From positions 1 to 7,328 of the forward strand of contig NYZA01000135.1 of the NCBI GenBank assembly GCA_002686955.1: DNA of 7,328 nt, in the 5' to 3' direction. The translations under genes and the position numbers were made by a program. Below are positions 2 through 7,328 of this stretch, piece by piece (positions within the stretch are counted from its first letter, which is position 1; the number at the start of each line of letters is the position of its first letter). Under the pieces are notes generated by a model that saw only the letters and a program-made list of their open reading frames with translations, searched no databases and was not told where the DNA came from. This DNA is from Gemmatimonadota bacterium. GTDB taxonomy: Bacteria; GCA-2686955.

Positions 2-3000
2 TTTTCGCTCGGGAGCCTGATTCGGGGGGTGCTCGCGGGGGGGGCGATGCGCGCGGCGGATCGGGTGGAGGTATCGACCCCGGGGGCGGGCGGCGTGGGC
101 GACCCGGGGGGGATCGCGGGGCTGGTGGATGAGCTGCTTGCGCGCGACCCGGCGAAACGGCCCGACTCTGCCCACGAGGTGGCGTGCCGCCTTGGCCGCG
201 CTTTGGCGCCGCGTAGAGGGGCCCGGGAGGAGGACGCGGCGCCACTGGTTCTCGGCGCGCGCCGGGGGGTGGAGTGGAAGCTGCTGCTCGCGGTGGGGAG
301 GCTGGTGGCCGGCCGGGGCGGCGGGGGGATCGCGCTCGTGGGACCGGCCGGGAGCGGGCGGCGGTCGTTGCTCAGGATCGCGGAGATCTTCGCGAAAGGG
401 CTCGGCGGGCAGTGTCGCTCGAATCCCGAGGGCGCCGCCATGGCCGATCGGACGAGCGGCTCGTCGCGGCCAACATTGCTGACCTTCGATCCGGGAGAGG
501 ATCGGTCGGTCTCGATGCAGCTATCCCGGGCGGCGCGGCTGCCGGAGGTGCTCGCGATCGCCGGCCTGAAGAGGGAGCCCGCGGATCCCGACCTGCGCGC
601 CTTGCGCCTCGGCCCTCTCGATCTCGGCGCGAGTGTTCGGCTCGGCAAGTCGCTGCTGCGCACCAGCCGTCTGCCGAAGGGCGCCGCCGTGGGCACGGCG
701 GGTCCGCTCCAGCCGGGCGCCTGGCGCGAGCGGCTCGAGCGCGCCCAGGTTCGGCGCAACGACCTCGGAGAGGTGAGCTCGATCTCGATCGGGAGCGTGG
801 AAGCTCCGCCGGCCGCGCCGGCGATCGGGCCCGCCCTCGTGGGCTTTTGCGGTGGATTGCTTCCGGCACCGAGAGTGGAAGCTCTTCTGCGGAACCACGG
901 CGCCGAATCGGAGGGGACGACGGGTGACCACCTTCGCGATCGCTCGCCGGGCCTCGTCTTCCGCTGGTCGGAGCGCGCACTCGGCCGCGAGGTCGCGAAG
1001 ACCCTGGCGAAAGCCGCCGCCGGTGCGCTCCTCGAGGCGGAGAGCAAGGGAGGCATCGATAGGAGAAGGCGAGCCGCCTGGGTGCTCAGATCGGTGGGGG
1101 CACTCGGCGCCCACCCGGATCTGGCGCGCGATGTGGCGGGGGAGGATTTGCGGCTGGGGCGACCCCGTTCGGCCGTCGCTCTGGCCCGCTCTGTGCTCCC
1201 AGCGCTCGAAGCGGGCACCCAATCGCACGATTCTCTGCTCGCGATCGCAGCCCGAGCCGCGCGCCAGTTGGGGAGGCCACGCTGGGCGCTGCGGTGGATC
1301 GAGCGCCGGGCGCCGAGGCCGGGCGGTGGTCTGCGCGAATCGCCGATGCTCACGATCGAGCGTCTGGAGGCGTTGATCCTCTGCGGAAGCGTCGAGGCAG
1401 CGTGGGATGCCGCGGGCGGATTGCGCGATCGCTTCGATCGGGCCGACCCGGCGGCCTGTCTCGTCGTCGCGCGGATCGCCCAACTCCGTGGCGACGAAGC
1501 GGCCACCCGCCGCTCGGCCGGTGCCGCGTTGCGTCGCGCCCGATCGAACGACCCGGGAGCGGTGGCCCGCGCTCTGGGCATACTGGCGACGAGCGATCTG
1601 GGGTCGGGCGACCTCTTTCGAGCCGCCCGTCGCTCCCGCGCCGCATTGGCGATTCGCCGGCGCCTGGAAGATTCCGCCGGAGTGGCGGCCTCTCTGGTCC
1701 AGCTGGCCGACGTCGATTCGGCCCGGCGAGACCACGCGTCGGCGCGCCGGCGACTCGATGAGGCGCTCGACCTTCGCCTCTCGTCGGGACAGGTGGCCGG
1801 AGCCGCCGACATCTTGGAGCGGATCGGCAAGATCGACGCCTCCACCGGGGACGCCGCCGCCGCCCGCGCGGGATTTGCCCGCGCCCTCAATCTGCGTGAG
1901 CGCTTGCGCGATGACGCCGGCGCCGCGGCCGCGCGCCACAATCTGGGTATTCTCGCTCTTCGCGCCGGCGACGCGCCCGCGGCTCGCCGCGCTTCGAACG
2001 CCGCGGCGGATCTCTTCGGCCGCCTGGGAGATCTGCACGCGGAGCTTGCGGCGCGCCTGCAGGCGGCACTGGCGGCCGAGTCGCTCGGACGGCGGCGCGA
2101 CGCGCTGGTTGAGCTCCGCGGGGTTCTGCGACGACGGCGCCGGGCCGGAGATGAGCGCGGGCTCGTCGTCGCGCTGAAACACCTGAGCGACCTTCTCGGC
2201 AGGGGAGGACACCCGGCCAGGGCGGCCCGGCTCGCCTGGATCGCGGCTTTTCGCGTGGGCGGCGGCGATGACGCATCCCGCCGCAATCAGCTCCTGCTCG
2301 ATGCCGCCGCCGCGGAGCTCGACGCCGGGCGCATCGACCGCGTGTGGTCGGCGTTGAGCGGTGTCGTCCTCGAGGCATCAGGGGCCGAGATCGTGCTCCA
2401 GGCAACTCTTCTAAAGGAACTGGCGGGAGCTCCGGCCCTCTCGGCGGAGCGTCTGGCGAGACTCGCGGAGCAGGCCGGCTTGCGCGCCCACCCGACGCTC
2501 GCGGCTGATGCCGCCGTCCGTCTCGCTCGGGCGGATCGTCCCGAGCTCGCCCGCTCGATCCTCAACGGAATCGGCGATCTCCCCTCGAATCTTTTCGCAG
2601 CCATTTCGGTCGATCTGGCGTGGATCGAGCTGCATCTGGCGATCGATGCGCGCTCGACCGATCGTTCCCGCCTGATCCGCGCCCGCCGCGAGGTCGACAG
2701 GATCGGCCTGCCGCGCCAGGGGGCACTATGTCATCTCCTCGAGGCCGCCCTGCTCGATCGTGCCGGCAGACCGGACGCCGCCGCCCACCACCTCGACGAG
2801 GCCGCTCTCCTACTCGGTCCCCCTCCTCGCTATCCCGATCTCAGGCTGAGAGTCGCGCGTCACCGCCGCCGTCTGCGCCCCGGCTCGCCCGATCGCAGAC
2901 AGCATTTGGCGCTCGTGCGCGTGACCGATCTGCTCGGCTCGATCGAGGATCCGGAGAAGCTCTTCAGCGCGATTCTGCGCGTCGTACTCGACACAGTGGC

Positions 3001-4543
3001 CGCGGAACGGGGGGTGCTCACCCTTCGCGAGGGCGACACCGAAAACTTCGAGATCGCCGTCGCACGCAACGTCGAGCGGCACGCCATGGAGGATGTGCGC
3101 CGAATCTCGCGAACCATTCTGGGCCGCGCCTACCGCGAGGGCGCCGTCCTCCACTCCTCCAACGCTCTCGAAGATGACGAGTTCAGCGGACTTCGCTCCG
3201 TCCAGCTCTACCGGATCGTGTCGTTCGCCTGCGCTCCCCTCGTGGTTGGCGGTCGGACCATCGGCACCATCTATGTCGACAAGCGATCGAAAGAGGGCGC
3301 GTTCTCGTCGAACGACCTCGGTTTCTTGGCGTCGCTGGCGCGAATCTCGGCCATCGCCCTCGAGCACGCCCGGCTGCACGATCGGCTCAAGACGCAGGCC
3401 GGCGCCTTGCGGCGCGAAATGGCCGCGATCTACGGGATCGAGAGCCTGATCCACCGGAGCAAGCCGCTCGAACGCGTCATGACGCAGGCGAGGCGCGTCA
3501 TCGATGTGGATACACCGATCCTCCTCCTCGGCGAGACCGGTGTCGGCAAGAGTGTGATCGCCCGCGCGATCCATTACTCGGGAGCGAGGGCGGCGGCCCC
3601 CTTCGTCGATCTGGACTGCGGCGCGATCCCCGAGGATCTCATCGAGAGTGAGCTCTTCGGGCACCGTCGAGGAGCGTTCACCGATGCCGCCAGCGATCGT
3701 GCCGGCGCGTTCAGGCAGGCCGACGGCGGCACGCTGCTGCTCGACGAGATCGGAAACCTGCCGGCCTCGGGCCAGGCGAAGCTCCTGCGCGTTCTGCAGG
3801 ATGGCCGCGTTCGCCCTCTGGGCGGAGACGAGGCGGTCAGGGTCGATGTCAGGGTGATTTGCGCCACGAACACCGACCTCGATCGCCGCGTCGCCGAGAG
3901 GAGCTTTCGCGGGGATCTTCTCTTCAGGATCAACACCATCCCACTCGCTCGGAGACGACGACGACTATCAGTGGATCGAGCTTTACAACACCGCCGCCGC
4001 TCCGATCGATCTGAGCGGGTGGTCGCTGGGAGACGTCTCGCTGACTGGGGAGATCGGGGCGCACGACTACGCGATCGTCGCCCGGCAGGACCTAACCGAT
4101 CCCGACCAGGACGGACGGTTCTTCAGTGCGTTCTACAACGAGCAGAACGGCTACGAGGTCGCCGAGACGATCATCGATCTGGCCGGTGCCGACCTGGGCT
4201 TGGGTGCCCCCGACTTCGATCTCGTGCTGCGCGACGGCGGCGGTTCGGTCGTCGACTCGACCAGCTTCCACCCGGCACCCGGCGGAGACGGCGACGGCTC
4301 CACGCTCGAACGGATGGTCGCCCCCTTGGACGGGCAGGATGGGAACTTCGCGCCCAGCACGCCGCCCGAGCGCTACGGCACGCCCGAGGGCCAGAACTCC
4401 GCCTCCCCGGTGACGATTCATATCTTCCTCCCGCCCGGTCCATTCGAGCCGGGAGAGGTGGTGACGATCGGCGAGTCGGTCGTGAATCGCACGAGTCAAC
4501 CCCAGGTGATTTCTCTGTGGAGGGCGCTGGAGCTCCCCCGTGA
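2..4543 (+). CDS. Ser/Thr kinase-TPR-GAF-sigma-54 activator fusion, partial at 5' end and broken at its 3' end
   Basis: Predicted cytosolic signal-integrating enhancer-binding protein, which would use ATP to open sigma-54 RNA polymerase. The frame is open to the left edge and reads FSLGSLIRG and then LLARDPAKRP, the C-lobe end of a Hanks-type kinase, so the GTG at 29 is internal. Counting that GTG codon as residue 1: kinase tail about 1-60; degenerate P-loop module about 80-320 (GPAGSGRRS, 105-113, Walker Lys replaced by Arg); TPR-like helices about 375-740; GAF about 960-1116; sigma-54 AAA+ from about 1138 with Walker A GETGVGKS (1168-1175), loop GAFTDA instead of GAFTGA (1215-1220), Walker B LLLDEIG (ending DE 1239-1240), sensor I ATN (1279-1281) and arginine fingers in FRGDLLFR. 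Homology ends at INTIPL (1306, nt 3946). The remaining AAA+ lid and HTH DNA-binding domain are missing. Residues 1307-1504 are an Arg-rich out-of-frame reading of the next gene. Confidence 0.9.
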   Translation, partial: FSLGSLIRGVLAGGAMRAADRVEVSTPGAGGVGDPGGIAGLVDELLARDPAKRPDSAHEVACRLGRALAPRRGAREEDAAPLVLGARRGVEWKLLLAVGRLVAGRGGGGIALVGPAGSGRRSLLRIAEIFAKGLGGQCRSNPEGAAMADRTSGSSRPTLLTFDPGEDRSVSMQLSRAARLPEVLAIAGLKREPADPDLRALRLGPLDLGASVRLGKSLLRTSRLPKGAAVGTAGPLQPGAWRERLERAQVRRNDLGEVSSISIGSVEAPPAAPAIGPALVGFCGGLLPAPRVEALLRNHGAESEGTTGDHLRDRSPGLVFRWSERALGREVAKTLAKAAAGALLEAESKGGIDRRRRAAWVLRSVGALGAHPDLARDVAGEDLRLGRPRSAVALARSVLPALEAGTQSHDSLLAIAARAARQLGRPRWALRWIERRAPRPGGGLRESPMLTIERLEALILCGSVEAAWDAAGGLRDRFDRADPAACLVVARIAQLRGDEAATRRSAGAALRRARSNDPGAVARALGILATSDLGSGDLFRAARRSRAALAIRRRLEDSAGVAASLVQLADVDSARRDHASARRRLDEALDLRLSSGQVAGAADILERIGKIDASTGDAAAARAGFARALNLRERLRDDAGAAAARHNLGILALRAGDAPAARRASNAAADLFGRLGDLHAELAARLQAALAAESLGRRRDALVELRGVLRRRRRAGDERGLVVALKHLSDLLGRGGHPARAARLAWIAAFRVGGGDDASRRNQLLLDAAAAELDAGRIDRVWSALSGVVLEASGAEIVLQATLLKELAGAPALSAERLARLAEQAGLRAHPTLAADAAVRLARADRPELARSILNGIGDLPSNLFAAISVDLAWIELHLAIDARSTDRSRLIRARREVDRIGLPRQGALCHLLEAALLDRAGRPDAAAHHLDEAALLLGPPPRYPDLRLRVARHRRRLRPGSPDRRQHLALVRVTDLLGSIEDPEKLFSAILRVVLDTVAAERGVLTLREGDTENFEIAVARNVERHAMEDVRRISRTILGRAYREGAVLHSSNALEDDEFSGLRSVQLYRIVSFACAPLVVGGRTIGTIYVDKRSKEGAFSSNDLGFLASLARISAIALEHARLHDRLKTQAGALRREMAAIYGIESLIHRSKPLERVMTQARRVIDVDTPILLLGETGVGKSVIARAIHYSGARAAAPFVDLDCGAIPEDLIESELFGHRRGAFTDAASDRAGAFRQADGGTLLLDEIGNLPASGQAKLLRVLQDGRVRPLGGDEAVRVDVRVICATNTDLDRRVAERSFRGDLLFRINTIPLARRRRRLSVDRALQHRRRSDRSERVVAGRRLADWGDRGARLRDRRPAGPNRSRPGRTVLQCVLQRAERLRGRRDDHRSGRCRPGLGCPRLRSRAARRRRFGRRLDQLPPGTRRRRRRLHARTDGRPLGRAGWELRAQHAARALRHARGPELRLPGDDSYLPPARSIRAGRGGDDRRVGRESHESTPGDFSVEGAGAPP
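3938..3950. other. Fusion junction between activator and lamin-tail gene
   Basis: Left of this point, frame 2 (the regulator frame) encodes a well-formed sigma-54 AAA+ domain ending INTIPL, where PPLRER-type sequence would be expected next. Right of it, frame 3 encodes LGDDDDYQWIELYN, the start of a lamin-tail domain. Both proteins lose conserved halves at the same point, so this is a breakpoint and not a simple frameshift: shifting frame does not restore the AAA+ domain. A genomic deletion between two co-oriented genes or an assembly chimera would look the same here. Confidence 0.85.
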
Positions 4544-4817
4544 CTCCGTCATTCCGATCGATGTCCCAGAGCTTCCGGAGCAGGTCACGATCCCTCCCGA
4601 CTTCGTGCTGGAGATCGAGGCCGAGGTCGAGGTGCCGGAGTTTCTGCTGGACGGCGGCTATGGCTACCAGGCGGCATTCGGACGGGGGGTTCAGTCCGCC
4701 GGTTCGGAGTGGGAGGAGTTCATCATCCGAACCAACGACCAGTCTCCTCCTCGCCACGGAGTTCACGAAATTGTGAACTCTTGCGCCGATTCGCCCACGG
4801 AATCGGTCCCCCGCTGA
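3942..4817 (+). CDS. Lamin-tail-domain (LTD) secreted protein, remnant lacking its N-terminus
   Basis: About 291 codons in frame 3, starting at the fusion junction and ending at TGA 4815-4817. No start codon of its own is convincing; a TTG at 4200 is mid-domain. The LTD signature is clear: WIELYN (3972-3989), then DLSGWSLGD, a VVDSTSFHP strand, and a GDGDGSTLERM segment followed by GTPEGQNSAS. LTD is an Ig-like beta-sandwich found in bacterial extracellular and surface proteins, so the lost N-terminus probably carried a signal peptide. From about 4420 a second Ig-like domain follows, with PGE (4449-4457), an Asn-x4-Pro turn and VPE-x4-GGY (4632-4661). This pattern recurs in the small secreted protein at 5494. 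No membrane anchor or sorting tail is visible at the C-terminus. As it stands the copy is probably not expressed as a normal protein. The LTD call is firm; the role is unknown. Confidence 0.82.
   Translation, partial: HSLGDDDDYQWIELYNTAAAPIDLSGWSLGDVSLTGEIGAHDYAIVARQDLTDPDQDGRFFSAFYNEQNGYEVAETIIDLAGADLGLGAPDFDLVLRDGGGSVVDSTSFHPAPGGDGDGSTLERMVAPLDGQDGNFAPSTPPERYGTPEGQNSASPVTIHIFLPPGPFEPGEVVTIGESVVNRTSQPQVISLWRALELPRDSVIPIDVPELPEQVTIPPDFVLEIEAEVEVPEFLLDGGYGYQAAFGRGVQSAGSEWEEFIIRTNDQSPPRHGVHEIVNSCADSPTESVPR
4759..4780. promoter_or_regulatory. 8+8 bp dyad, candidate upstream activator-binding site
   Basis: GAGTTCAC, six bases (gaaatt), then GTGAACTC: a perfect interrupted palindrome. It lies inside the 3' end of the LTD reading frame, where it encodes the low-complexity tail VHEIVN, so coding constraint does not obviously explain it. 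Its centre is about 100 bp upstream of the -24 element at 4869 and about 124 bp upstream of the predicted start point, a usual position for a sigma-54 enhancer-binding protein. The bound protein is not known, and the adjacent activator has lost its DNA-binding domain. Confidence 0.5.
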
Positions 4818-4867: not shown

Positions 4868-4883
4868 CGGCACAAGTATTGCG
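4868..4883 (+). promoter_or_regulatory. Sigma-54 (-24/-12) promoter
   Basis: The sequence cGGCACAagtaTTGCg fits the consensus TGGCACR-N4-TTGCW at all core positions. The GG at 4869-4870 and the GC at 4881-4882 have the required spacing of ten bases between them; only the first and last bases differ from consensus. Transcription would start near 4893 and run rightwards through about 600 nt of structured leader to the secreted protein at 5494. No ORF start with a good ribosome site occurs sooner. The activating protein would be an enhancer-binding protein like the one encoded upstream. Confidence 0.6.
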
Positions 4884-4971
4884 CTAGCGGAGAGGCAAGC
4901 CTCCGGTGGAGATTCACTCCGCCGGGCTCGGCCCCGACCTCTCACCCGAATCCAATATTCACCTCACCCCT

Positions 4972-5156
4972 TAGGGTCCGGGCAAGAATAAAATGCCATT
5001 TTCGCATCCCATCTGCACTCCATCTCCGGCCGATCGGCAAGCCCCGAAATCCTCAAAACAGCCCTACTATTCCTGCGGTTTCGGAACTTGCCGATCGCCC
5101 AGATCTGAAGCACATCTGGGCGCCAGAATAGCATTTTATTCTTGCGCGGACCCCTA
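4972..5156. repeat. 185-nt imperfect long hairpin (inverted repeat)
   Basis: The outer arms 4974-4996 and 5131-5153 pair with a single mismatch, including a perfect 15-bp core (GCAAGAATAAAATGC at 4982-4996 against 5131-5145). One bulged base lets the pairing extend to 4972/5156. An inner stem pairs 5031-5041 with 5087-5097, and CCGAAA (5044-5049) with TTTCGG (5079-5084), almost in the same register. Between outer and inner stems, the right arm carries its own 9+9 bp hairpin (CGCCCAGAT/ATCTGGGCG, 5096-5122), while the left arm carries AAAATGcCATTTT (4990-5002). The loop is about 29 nt. Confidence 0.75.
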
Positions 5157-5203
5157 GTGCACCCCGGCACAGATACGGCCACACTCGGCCGCCGCTGCAT
5201 CCA

Positions 5204-5269
5204 CTCTGGCTGCGTTGCTACTCCTCGCCATAGCCTCCGGCCATGACTAGTCGTCGCGCCTTGCCAGAG
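5204..5269. repeat. Second dyad inside the repeat block
   Basis: CTCTGGC (5204-5210) pairs with GCCAGAG (5263-5269). The interior is only partly complementary (GCG/CGC pieces and an ACTAGT palindrome at 5246-5251). It sits between the long hairpin and the right 13-bp terminal repeat, so it probably belongs to the same element. It is weaker than the other two structures. Confidence 0.4.
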
Positions 5270-5344
5270 CGGCGCATCGGCACCCTCATTACGTGACCGT
5301 GTTTGCGCCGAGGAGCACTTTGCATCGGGTGAGAGGTTCGTCGG

Positions 5345-5400
5345 GACCCGAGTTTCTCGCCGTTCCCTCCGATCGGAGAGACCGGCGAGAGGTTCGGGTC
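5345..5400 (+). promoter_or_regulatory. 56-nt leader stem-loop upstream of the secreted-protein gene
   Basis: All positions pair in one register (i + j = 10745): 28 pairs, of which 23 are Watson-Crick, three are G-U and two are mismatches. It includes GACCCGA/TCGGGTC outside, TCTCGCCG/CGGCGAGA in the middle and the palindrome CTCCGATCGGAG at the tip. The three adjacent G-U pairs (5352-5354 with 5391-5393) hold only in a plus-strand transcript, which suggests an RNA element in the leader of the gene at 5494. It has no following U-run, so it is not a standard terminator. Confidence 0.6.
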
Positions 5401-5482
5401 GATTCATCCGCCGATCGGGAGCCGTCGCGGGGGCGTGGCGATCGGCCGCGCCGAAGCGCCGGTCCCACGATCACGGAATTCT

Positions 5483-5493: not shown

Positions 5494-5874
5494 ATGCTCC
5501 GTTCTATCGTTTCAGCCCTGCTGGCAACCGCCTTCTCGTTCACCGCGCAGGCCCAGTGTGTGTCCTGTGACATCACCGTCGGGGCGGACTGTGTCGCTCC
5601 CGGCGAGCGGCTCGAGGTTGAAGTCTGTGTCATCAACTCCTGCGATCGGCCGGTCGAGATTCTGGCTTCGCTGATCGCCCATGCCCTCGAAGGCGAGGAG
5701 TTCGTGATCGAGGAGACCGCCCTCTTGCTGCCGCCGATCGAGAAATGCAAGACCTACAACCTCAGGGTCCCCGAGGACATCGTCCGTGGCGGCTACGACC
5801 TCGAAGTGACGATCGTCGAGGGCGACCACACCAGCACTTGCGGCGCCGCCGTGACGGTGTCCGACGACTGCTGA
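5494..5874 (+). CDS. Small secreted Cys-rich Ig-like protein (126 aa)
   Basis: The protein starts with a signal peptide: MLRS, a hydrophobic stretch, then AQA, with likely signal peptidase I cleavage after residue 20. The mature part of about 106 residues has eight cysteines (22, 25, 33, 45, 50, 85, 116, 126), an even number that suits disulfide bonds outside the cytoplasm. Alternating beta-strand patterns and the turn PGE-x9-N-x4-P (36-53) suggest one Ig-like/CARDB-like sandwich. VPE-x4-GGY (92-101) follows. The same spaced residues occur in the C-terminal domain of the upstream LTD protein, so the two are probably related. AQAQC is not a proper lipobox. A GGGAG ribosome site precedes the start and a terminator follows the stop. 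Upstream lie a structured leader and a sigma-54 promoter. Function is unrecognised; a surface or binding role is only a guess. Confidence 0.8.
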   Translation: MLRSIVSALLATAFSFTAQAQCVSCDITVGADCVAPGERLEVEVCVINSCDRPVEILASLIAHALEGEEFVIEETALLLPPIEKCKTYNLRVPEDIVRGGYDLEVTIVEGDHTSTCGAAVTVSDDC

Positions 5875-5900: not shown

Positions 5901-5938
5901 GCGGCCGGTCCGTATTCGAGGCCGGCCGTCTTCTGTTT
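5901..5938 (+). terminator. Intrinsic terminator between convergent genes
   Basis: GCGGCCGGTC (5901-5910) pairs with GGCCGGCCGT (5920-5929), with wobble pairs at each end of a 7-bp all-GC core and a 9-nt loop. CTTCTGTTT follows. It lies 26 nt after the stop of the secreted-protein gene and directly before the stop codon of the minus-strand DUF885 gene, so it may also end that transcript, although the minus-strand U-run (TCTTA) is weak. Confidence 0.7.
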
Positions 5939-7328
5939 CAGCCCCCGTCGATCCACTGCTCCATCCAGCTTTCGAGCAGATCGAGGGGCGCGCCGCCGAG
6001 AGCCAATAGGCGGTCGTGGAATCCCCGCAGGTCGAAATCGGTTGTGGCGGCTTCGGCCCGCCGGCGGATTTCGGAGATCCGCAGCTCACCGATCTTGTAG
6101 GCGAGGGCCTGGGCGGGCATGCAGATGTAACGATCGACCTCGGCCACGACGTTGTGTCGGGAGAGGGCCGTCTCGCTCAGCAGGAACTCGACGGCTTGCT
6201 CGTGGGTCCACCCCTTGTCGTGGATCCCGGTGTCGACCACCAGCCGTGCCGCCCGCCAGATCTCCATGGTGAGTCGCCCGAACTCCGAGTAGGGGTCCTG
6301 GTAGAAGCCGATCTCACGTGGCAGGCGCTCGGAATAGAGTGCCCAACCTTCGGCGTAGGCCGGGAAGACGCCGTGTTTGCGAAACTCGGGCAGCCCTTCG
6401 ATCTCTTGGGCCACGGCGATCTGCAGATGGTGCCCCGGCACCGCCTCGTGATAAGCCAGCGCTTCCATCGTGTAGCCCGGCCGCGAGCGGGGCCGGTAGG
6501 TGTTTGCGTAGAACACCCCCGCTCGCTCCCCCGCGGGCGGCATGTAGTAGGCGTCGGGTGCGTTGGCGGCACGATAGTCCTCGATCGGCCAGACCTCGAA
6601 GCCCGCCTTCGGCAGGTGGCCGAAGAGCAGTGGCAGCTTCTCTTGAACCGCGTCCAGCACCGTCCGGAACCCATCCAGCACCGCGTCCGCAGACTCGAAG
6701 TGCAGCTCCGGCCGCCCGCGCAGGTGCTCGGTGAACGCTTTCAGCCCGCCCGTACACCCCACCTGGTCGATGACGCGCGCCATCTCGCTCTGAATACGGT
6801 CCACTTCGTCCAACCCGATCTTGTGGATCTCATCGGGTGAGAGCTCGGTCGTCGTGCAGCGAACCGTGAGTCGCCCGTAGATCTCCTCACCTCGTGGCAG
6901 TGCGTGGACGCCGACCACGTCACGGCAGCGTGGCAGATACTCCTTCTCGATGAACTCCGCCAGCTTCGCGTAGGCCGGAGCAACCGCTTCGCTCAGAGCG
7001 CTTTCCGCGGCGGAAGCGATCGTCTCGATTCCATCGAGATCATCCTCGCGCCCCTCGAAGGGCCGCAGCAAAGGGGAGGAATCCGGGCTCGACTGGGCGC
7101 GCACCTGCTCCAGAATCGCCGCGAAGTTCAGCTTCGCCCCCACCATCCCCTTCTCAATTCCTCGCTGCATCAACCCGATGATCTGATCGACCTGCTTGGG
7201 GAATGCGCGCAGGCGTTCGACATACGATTCGAGTCCGGCGCGGTCCTCGGTGGGGTGGATGGTCGCCAGCTGCAAGAGATCGAGGTGTGGACCGAAGAGC
7301 TGGGTCATGGGGATCAGATGGGTTTCCA
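5938..7328 (-). CDS. DUF885 family metallopeptidase-like protein, N-terminus outside the window
   Basis: Stop TGA at 5938-5940 (minus); the frame is still open at the right edge. ATG 7308 is preceded in frame by ETHLIP, which continues the family segment ending in TQLFGPHLDLLQL, so that ATG is internal. At least 456 residues remain of a family usually near 550-600. Counting from that Met: YARLRAFP-type segment ERLRAFPKQVDQI (31-43), ALAYHEAVPGHHLQ (283-296), AYAEGWALYSE (317-327), VVDTGIHDKGW (357-367) and EVDRYICMPAQALAYKIGE (390-408). These are the hallmark blocks of DUF885. The HEAVPGHH cluster with Glu320 resembles a zinc site, and structures in the family are peptidase-like, but the substrate is not established. 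Members often carry a signal peptide or lipoprotein signal, which would lie outside the window. It is convergent with the secreted-protein gene and is probably a separate transcription unit. All key residues are intact. Confidence 0.92.
   Translation of the reverse strand, partial: ETHLIPMTQLFGPHLDLLQLATIHPTEDRAGLESYVERLRAFPKQVDQIIGLMQRGIEKGMVGAKLNFAAILEQVRAQSSPDSSPLLRPFEGREDDLDGIETIASAAESALSEAVAPAYAKLAEFIEKEYLPRCRDVVGVHALPRGEEIYGRLTVRCTTTELSPDEIHKIGLDEVDRIQSEMARVIDQVGCTGGLKAFTEHLRGRPELHFESADAVLDGFRTVLDAVQEKLPLLFGHLPKAGFEVWPIEDYRAANAPDAYYMPPAGERAGVFYANTYRPRSRPGYTMEALAYHEAVPGHHLQIAVAQEIEGLPEFRKHGVFPAYAEGWALYSERLPREIGFYQDPYSEFGRLTMEIWRAARLVVDTGIHDKGWTHEQAVEFLLSETALSRHNVVAEVDRYICMPAQALAYKIGELRISEIRRRAEAATTDFDLRGFHDRLLALGGAPLDLLESWMEQWIDGG

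Follow-up and report, generated by a model that had tools for sequence, protein, structure and literature searches.

The closest described arrangement is the predicted DVU2275/pyruvate formate-lyase operon of Desulfovibrio, in which the activator gene is located beside its target and a palindromic site lies upstream of a conserved sigma-54 promoter (PMC4641369). More generally, sigma-54 was characterized as a controller of the bacterial exterior, and many of its targets are exported (Francke et al. 2011, PMC3162934).

The locus analyzed here is contained in a window of 7,328 nt, the whole stretch of DNA under study, from a Gemmatimonadota genome. It shares with the Desulfovibrio operon the -24/-12 element, the upstream palindromic site, and an activator gene beside the target. 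It differs from that operon as follows. A small secreted Ig-like protein is the presumed target; the activator of this locus type combines a protein kinase domain with TPR and GAF, and is truncated in the host genome; and the locus includes a gene for an exported lamin tail domain (LTD) protein and a leader hairpin. The exported target agrees with the survey of Francke et al., whereas the genes here come from unnamed families, and their phylum is represented by two genomes. A sigma-54 promoter beside an activator gene and downstream of a palindrome is thus a known arrangement, and what is unusual here is the activator architecture and the apparently damaged copy.

It is probable that the motif described below is a genuine RpoN promoter for the Ig-like gene at 5494, with the activator acting at the palindrome and a hairpin in the leader, and that this module is complete in the related genome G001 and damaged in the host. 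As a regulatory unit, the locus lends itself to testing, in a phylum represented by two genomes in the search.

The -24/-12 element and sigma-54 usage

The sequence CGGCACAAGTATTGCG occupies positions 4868–4883 on the plus strand and reads as a sigma-54 promoter element, CGGCAC-AAGTA-TTGCG, with GGCAC at 4869–4873, TTGC at 4879–4882, and a predicted transcript start at about 4893. Sigma-54 requires GG and GC ten bases apart. The preliminary description gave the motif as GGCAC-N6-TTGC with exact -24/-12 spacing; the motif is present and its GG-N10-GC spacing is canonical, but the spacer, AAGTA, has five bases rather than six. Against the ten-base consensus TGGCAC-N5-TTGC there is one mismatch (C for T before GG), and GG and GC are intact. 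The base after TTGC is G, where A or T is expected. Exact GGCAC-N5-TTGC occurs once in the window, with 0.04 occurrences expected per whole window from shuffled sequences, and the earlier chance estimate of 0.005 for the 676-bp gap is sound. In Markov shuffles of the gap, an equally good or better site on the sense strand has P ~0.008. As described earlier, the motif is directed at the secreted Ig-like gene, whose ATG at 5494 is ~600 bp away.

The phylum is represented by two genomes in the search, and the single relative is G001, where the orthologous locus (L100) lies on contig C837. No other orthologs were found among 60 relatives, the whole phylum (two genomes), GTDB contigs (with the activator as query), or viral contigs. 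The window and L100 share the gene order: activator, LTD gene, gap, Ig-like gene, and a convergent DUF885 gene (5938–7326, minus strand), which was recognized with Pfam and the L100 comparison and anchors the synteny. The G001 gap contains TGGCAC-ATTTC-CTGC (TGGCACATTTCCTGC) at L100:9331–9345 on the same strand, with one mismatch. A sense-strand site of this quality is expected by chance in this gap with a probability of 0.012, and the joint chance of sites in both gaps is ~1 × 10−4 (the product of 0.008 and 0.012).

The synonymous divergence between the window and G001 is 1.2–1.6, near saturation, and unconstrained DNA is therefore expected to be unrecognizable. Aligning the two gaps globally gave no useful information, with no alignment outside the conserved blocks; thus, the position of the site is judged by the order of elements and not base by base. 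The spacers of the two sites differ, and each site has one mismatch. It had been proposed that the gap be compared in related genomes, and that a motif not conserved there would have to be given up. The one orthologous gap holds a same-strand sigma-54-like site within the same order of elements, and so the motif stands. Because the only relative has a like site in the corresponding gap, along with two matching control elements, the motif is very probably a real promoter. A motif called from raw sequence is in this way raised to a well-supported promoter through a single orthologous gap.

The host genome is a 4.28-Mb draft MAG of 270 contigs, 84.5% complete. It has one copy of rpoN (one Sigma54_DBD match, E 7 × 10−63) and ~30 matches to the sigma-54 activator core. 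Gene boundaries for placing the motif were called from codon usage, with 338 kb (91% coding) as the training set. The exact motif GGCAC-N5-TTGC occurs 54 times genome-wide, against 45 for a reversed-pattern control, and this count alone says little. Its barely raised number is what would be expected if the motif were a chance intergenic match and the Ig-like gene had another promoter, and so are the copies found in coding DNA, the distance of ~600 bp to the gene, and the low score of the motif in one matrix fold. Against this reading, 35 of the 54 copies are intergenic, against ~5 predicted from an intergenic fraction of 9%; the same-strand counterpart in the orthologous gap has the low joint chance given above; and no sigma-70-like site was found in the gap. 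A chance match is therefore quite improbable.

The intergenic copies are mostly located within 160 bp upstream of a gene on the same strand. The downstream genes include those for flagellar rod and hook, a flagellar-type sigma factor, groES, dnaK, hsp20, and a polysaccharide export protein. A sigma-54 regulon of such genes (flagella, heat shock, export) is familiar in other bacteria (PMC12316311), and sigma-54 appears to be widely used for the same functions in this phylum. In 738 kb scanned, sites with at most one mismatch are 13 times as dense upstream of genes (0.23 per kb) as in coding DNA (0.018 per kb); 12 upstream sites were observed, while letter-permuted controls gave a mean of 1.4 and a largest value of 7. 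Sigma-54 sites are clearly in use in the host genome. A weight matrix learned by EM on the host genome was dropped, as it was inflated by copies of a MITE-like repeat and unstable on held-out data, and mismatch counts were used in its place. The half-trained matrices disagree on the window and G001 sites (7.7 and 9.2 bits versus 1.0 and 0.5 bits).

The upstream palindrome and the truncated activator

A palindrome, GAGTTCAC-N6-GTGAACTC, is located at 4759–4780 and is a candidate enhancer (UAS) for the activator. Its core, GTTCAC-N6-GTGAAC, lies at 4761–4778 in the window and at 9200–9217 in L100, and the exact core is found once in the host genome and once in G001, at the orthologous place. With the outer bases included, the arms are GAGTTCAC/GTGAACTC in the window and AAGTTCAC/GTGAACTT in G001. 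A like palindrome common to both gaps was seen in 0 of 3000 simulated gap pairs. The distance from the palindrome center to the GG of the promoter is 100 bp in the window and 124 bp in G001. Activator sites are usually located 80–150 bp upstream (PMC7910581), and in both genomes the palindrome lies in this range.

The promoter could be real while the palindrome is a terminator-like hairpin or the site of an unrelated regulator, with the activator controlling something else. As RNA, the palindrome folds with −12.8 and −9.8 kcal/mol in the two genomes, and in each it is located after the conserved portion of the LTD gene. Its outermost pair is changed on both sides (G-C versus A-T), which is allowed in a hairpin as well. 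However, no T-run was found after the palindrome, and its distance from the promoter suits an activator site. The other seven of the eight stem pairs are identical in sequence despite near-saturated neutral DNA, a pattern more in keeping with a protein site than with a stem. This alternative is accordingly considered unlikely, and the palindrome is likely an enhancer for the neighboring activator, a role with less support than the promoter itself. That this activator would be the protein binding it is suggested by adjacency only.

In G001, the activator is intact (L100:3266–8182). It is a protein of 1639 aa with an N-terminal protein kinase domain, TPR, GAF, the sigma-54 AAA+ domain, the AAA lid, and a Fis-type HTH (HTH_8). 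The activator and LTD genes overlap by 4 bp. This adjoining, HTH-bearing activator favors the preferred reading of promoter, palindrome, and activator as one module. In the window, Pfam and the intact ortholog indicate a remnant of this large activator at 2–3952 (plus strand), comprising TPR, GAF, and the first part of AAA+. The AAA+ domain matches PF00158 with an E-value of 3 × 10−63, and the GAFTGA-type loop is present, reading GAFTDA. The C-terminal DNA-binding HTH, one of the marks of an enhancer-binding protein, is missing; thus, the window activator in its assembled form would be unable to bind DNA.

The motif had been placed just downstream of the activator gene, which is half right: the activator frame ends at ~3940–3952, and a 0.85-kb LTD gene intervenes. 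This gene (3963–4817, plus strand; Pfam LTD) has no start and no signal peptide, while its ortholog at L100:8182–9174 has a signal peptide. Across a junction at 3938–3965, the activator frame breaks at ~3940–3952 and continues into the LTD gene in a different frame, and ~0.6 kb of the relative is missing. The blastn match to L100 ends at window position 3813 and restarts at 3957 (L100 8359). Compared with G001, the end of AAA+, the lid, the HTH, and the start of the LTD gene with its signal peptide are lost. The junction may include a shared stretch of ~11 bases. The call of the neighboring gene is corrected by this comparison: the activator is truncated in the assembly.

It is a serious possibility, somewhat short of even, that the truncation is an assembly artefact and that the host genome has an intact module like that of G001, which would be compatible with the preferred reading. 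Both remnants are without internal stops and still resemble ordinary coding sequence, and the assembly is a draft of 270 contigs. On the other hand, a search of the rest of the assembly did not recover the missing ~0.6 kb at ortholog-level identity (the best paralog shows 42%), and an apparent overlap of ~11 bases is short for an assembler join.

If promoter, palindrome, and activator do form one module, the RpoN holoenzyme would bind the -24/-12 element (4868–4882) as a closed complex. The kinase-TPR-GAF-AAA+-HTH activator would bind the palindrome ~100–124 bp upstream as a dimer, loop to the holoenzyme, open the promoter, and drive the Ig-like gene. The transcript would carry the conserved leader hairpin ahead of the start codon. 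In the host as assembled, where the activator is without its DNA-binding end and the leader is lengthened by repeats, the promoter may be orphaned or served by another activator, or the loss may be an assembly join. The points that weigh against such a module are the truncated activator of the window, the ~600 bp between promoter and gene, the comparison of two genomes only, and the two sites themselves, with their different spacers, their single mismatches, and the disagreement of the half-trained matrices.

The presumed target gene, its leader, and the inserted repeats

The presumed target (5494–5874, plus strand) encodes a secreted Ig/FnIII-like beta-sandwich protein of 126 aa, 48% identical to its ortholog in G001. 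Its N-terminus reads as a signal peptide, and no Pfam match was found for the protein. The predicted structure (pLDDT 83) is a seven-stranded beta sandwich, and the closest solved folds are the biofilm protein RbmA and a CARDB domain. Thus, "Ig-like" is a fair description.

Directly before this gene, a conserved two-stage leader hairpin is located at 5421–5463 (plus strand), corresponding to L100:9371–9413. It is unique in each of the two genomes and has an identical predicted fold in both. One pair is changed on both sides between the window and G001, which is weak as covariation because only two sequences are compared. The G001 hairpin would start ~14 bases past the transcript start predicted there at about 9357.

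The distance from promoter to hairpin is ~540 bp in the window versus ~25 bp in G001. Between promoter and gene lies a long-hairpin repeat of 186 bp with terminal inverted repeats (4971–5156). It folds with −50.5 kcal/mol as DNA (z −8) and −88.6 kcal/mol as RNA (z −9). About 40 or more copies are present in the host genome (including those at L002–L030), with 27 full or partial copies in 738 kb, and it was not found in G001. Aligned copies have the terminal inverted repeats GGGTCCGCGCAAGAATA, and several show a 3-bp duplication (TTT, TAT, TCA, or TGA); these features make the repeat MITE-like. It is followed by a second dispersed repeat (5162–5318), which recurs with 87% identity on contig C153 (L209 311–468), and by an imperfect palindrome of 56 bp (5345–5400). 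No Rfam family covers the leader hairpin or the repeats.

Two minor observations concern this inserted DNA. A perfect 13-bp inverted repeat, ACCTCTCACCCGA, at 4937–4949 and 5325–5337 bounds the whole inserted block. Several copies of the 186-bp repeat (L172 4619 and 16216, L175 13456, and L159 13831) carry TGGCATCCCATCTGC, a sigma-54-like -24/-12 pattern with two mismatches, and the repeat might therefore scatter promoters; the copy in the window is without the GG of this pattern.

The preliminary description read the locus as a promoter next to a gene of the class that activates it. The promoter is supported by the orthologous gap, rpoN, and genome-wide usage, and the link to the activator fits the locus type, which is intact in the relative; in the window itself, the activator is without its DNA-binding domain and repeats are inserted between promoter and target. 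As a tentative idea, the locus may represent a one-gene switch peculiar to the phylum, with a kinase-TPR-GAF activator translationally coupled to the LTD gene, a genome-unique palindrome, a single Ig/FnIII-like target, and a hairpin leading the mRNA, which in one lineage has recently been truncated by a deletion and invaded by MITEs.

Other LTD loci

A paralogous locus on contig C174 of the host genome G000 (L202) has an activator of the same TPR-GAF-AAA+-HTH type. An LTD gene comes next, and a one-mismatch sigma-54 site, TGGCGC-GATAC-TTGC, separates the two genes. Unlike in the window, the site precedes the LTD gene itself, and there is no Ig-like gene. No copy of the palindrome was found at this locus. 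The arrangement supports the theme that such activators control adjoining exported proteins.

A motif scan upstream of LTD genes had been suggested. One-mismatch intergenic sites are indeed present near LTD genes, at 3 of 30 LTD loci (L213, L214, and the ortholog), but only the ortholog adjoins this activator. With this frequency, a general link between LTD genes and sigma-54 was rejected. The sites at L213 1315 and L214 2076 are located ~110 and 65 bp, respectively, upstream of two other LTD genes of G001.
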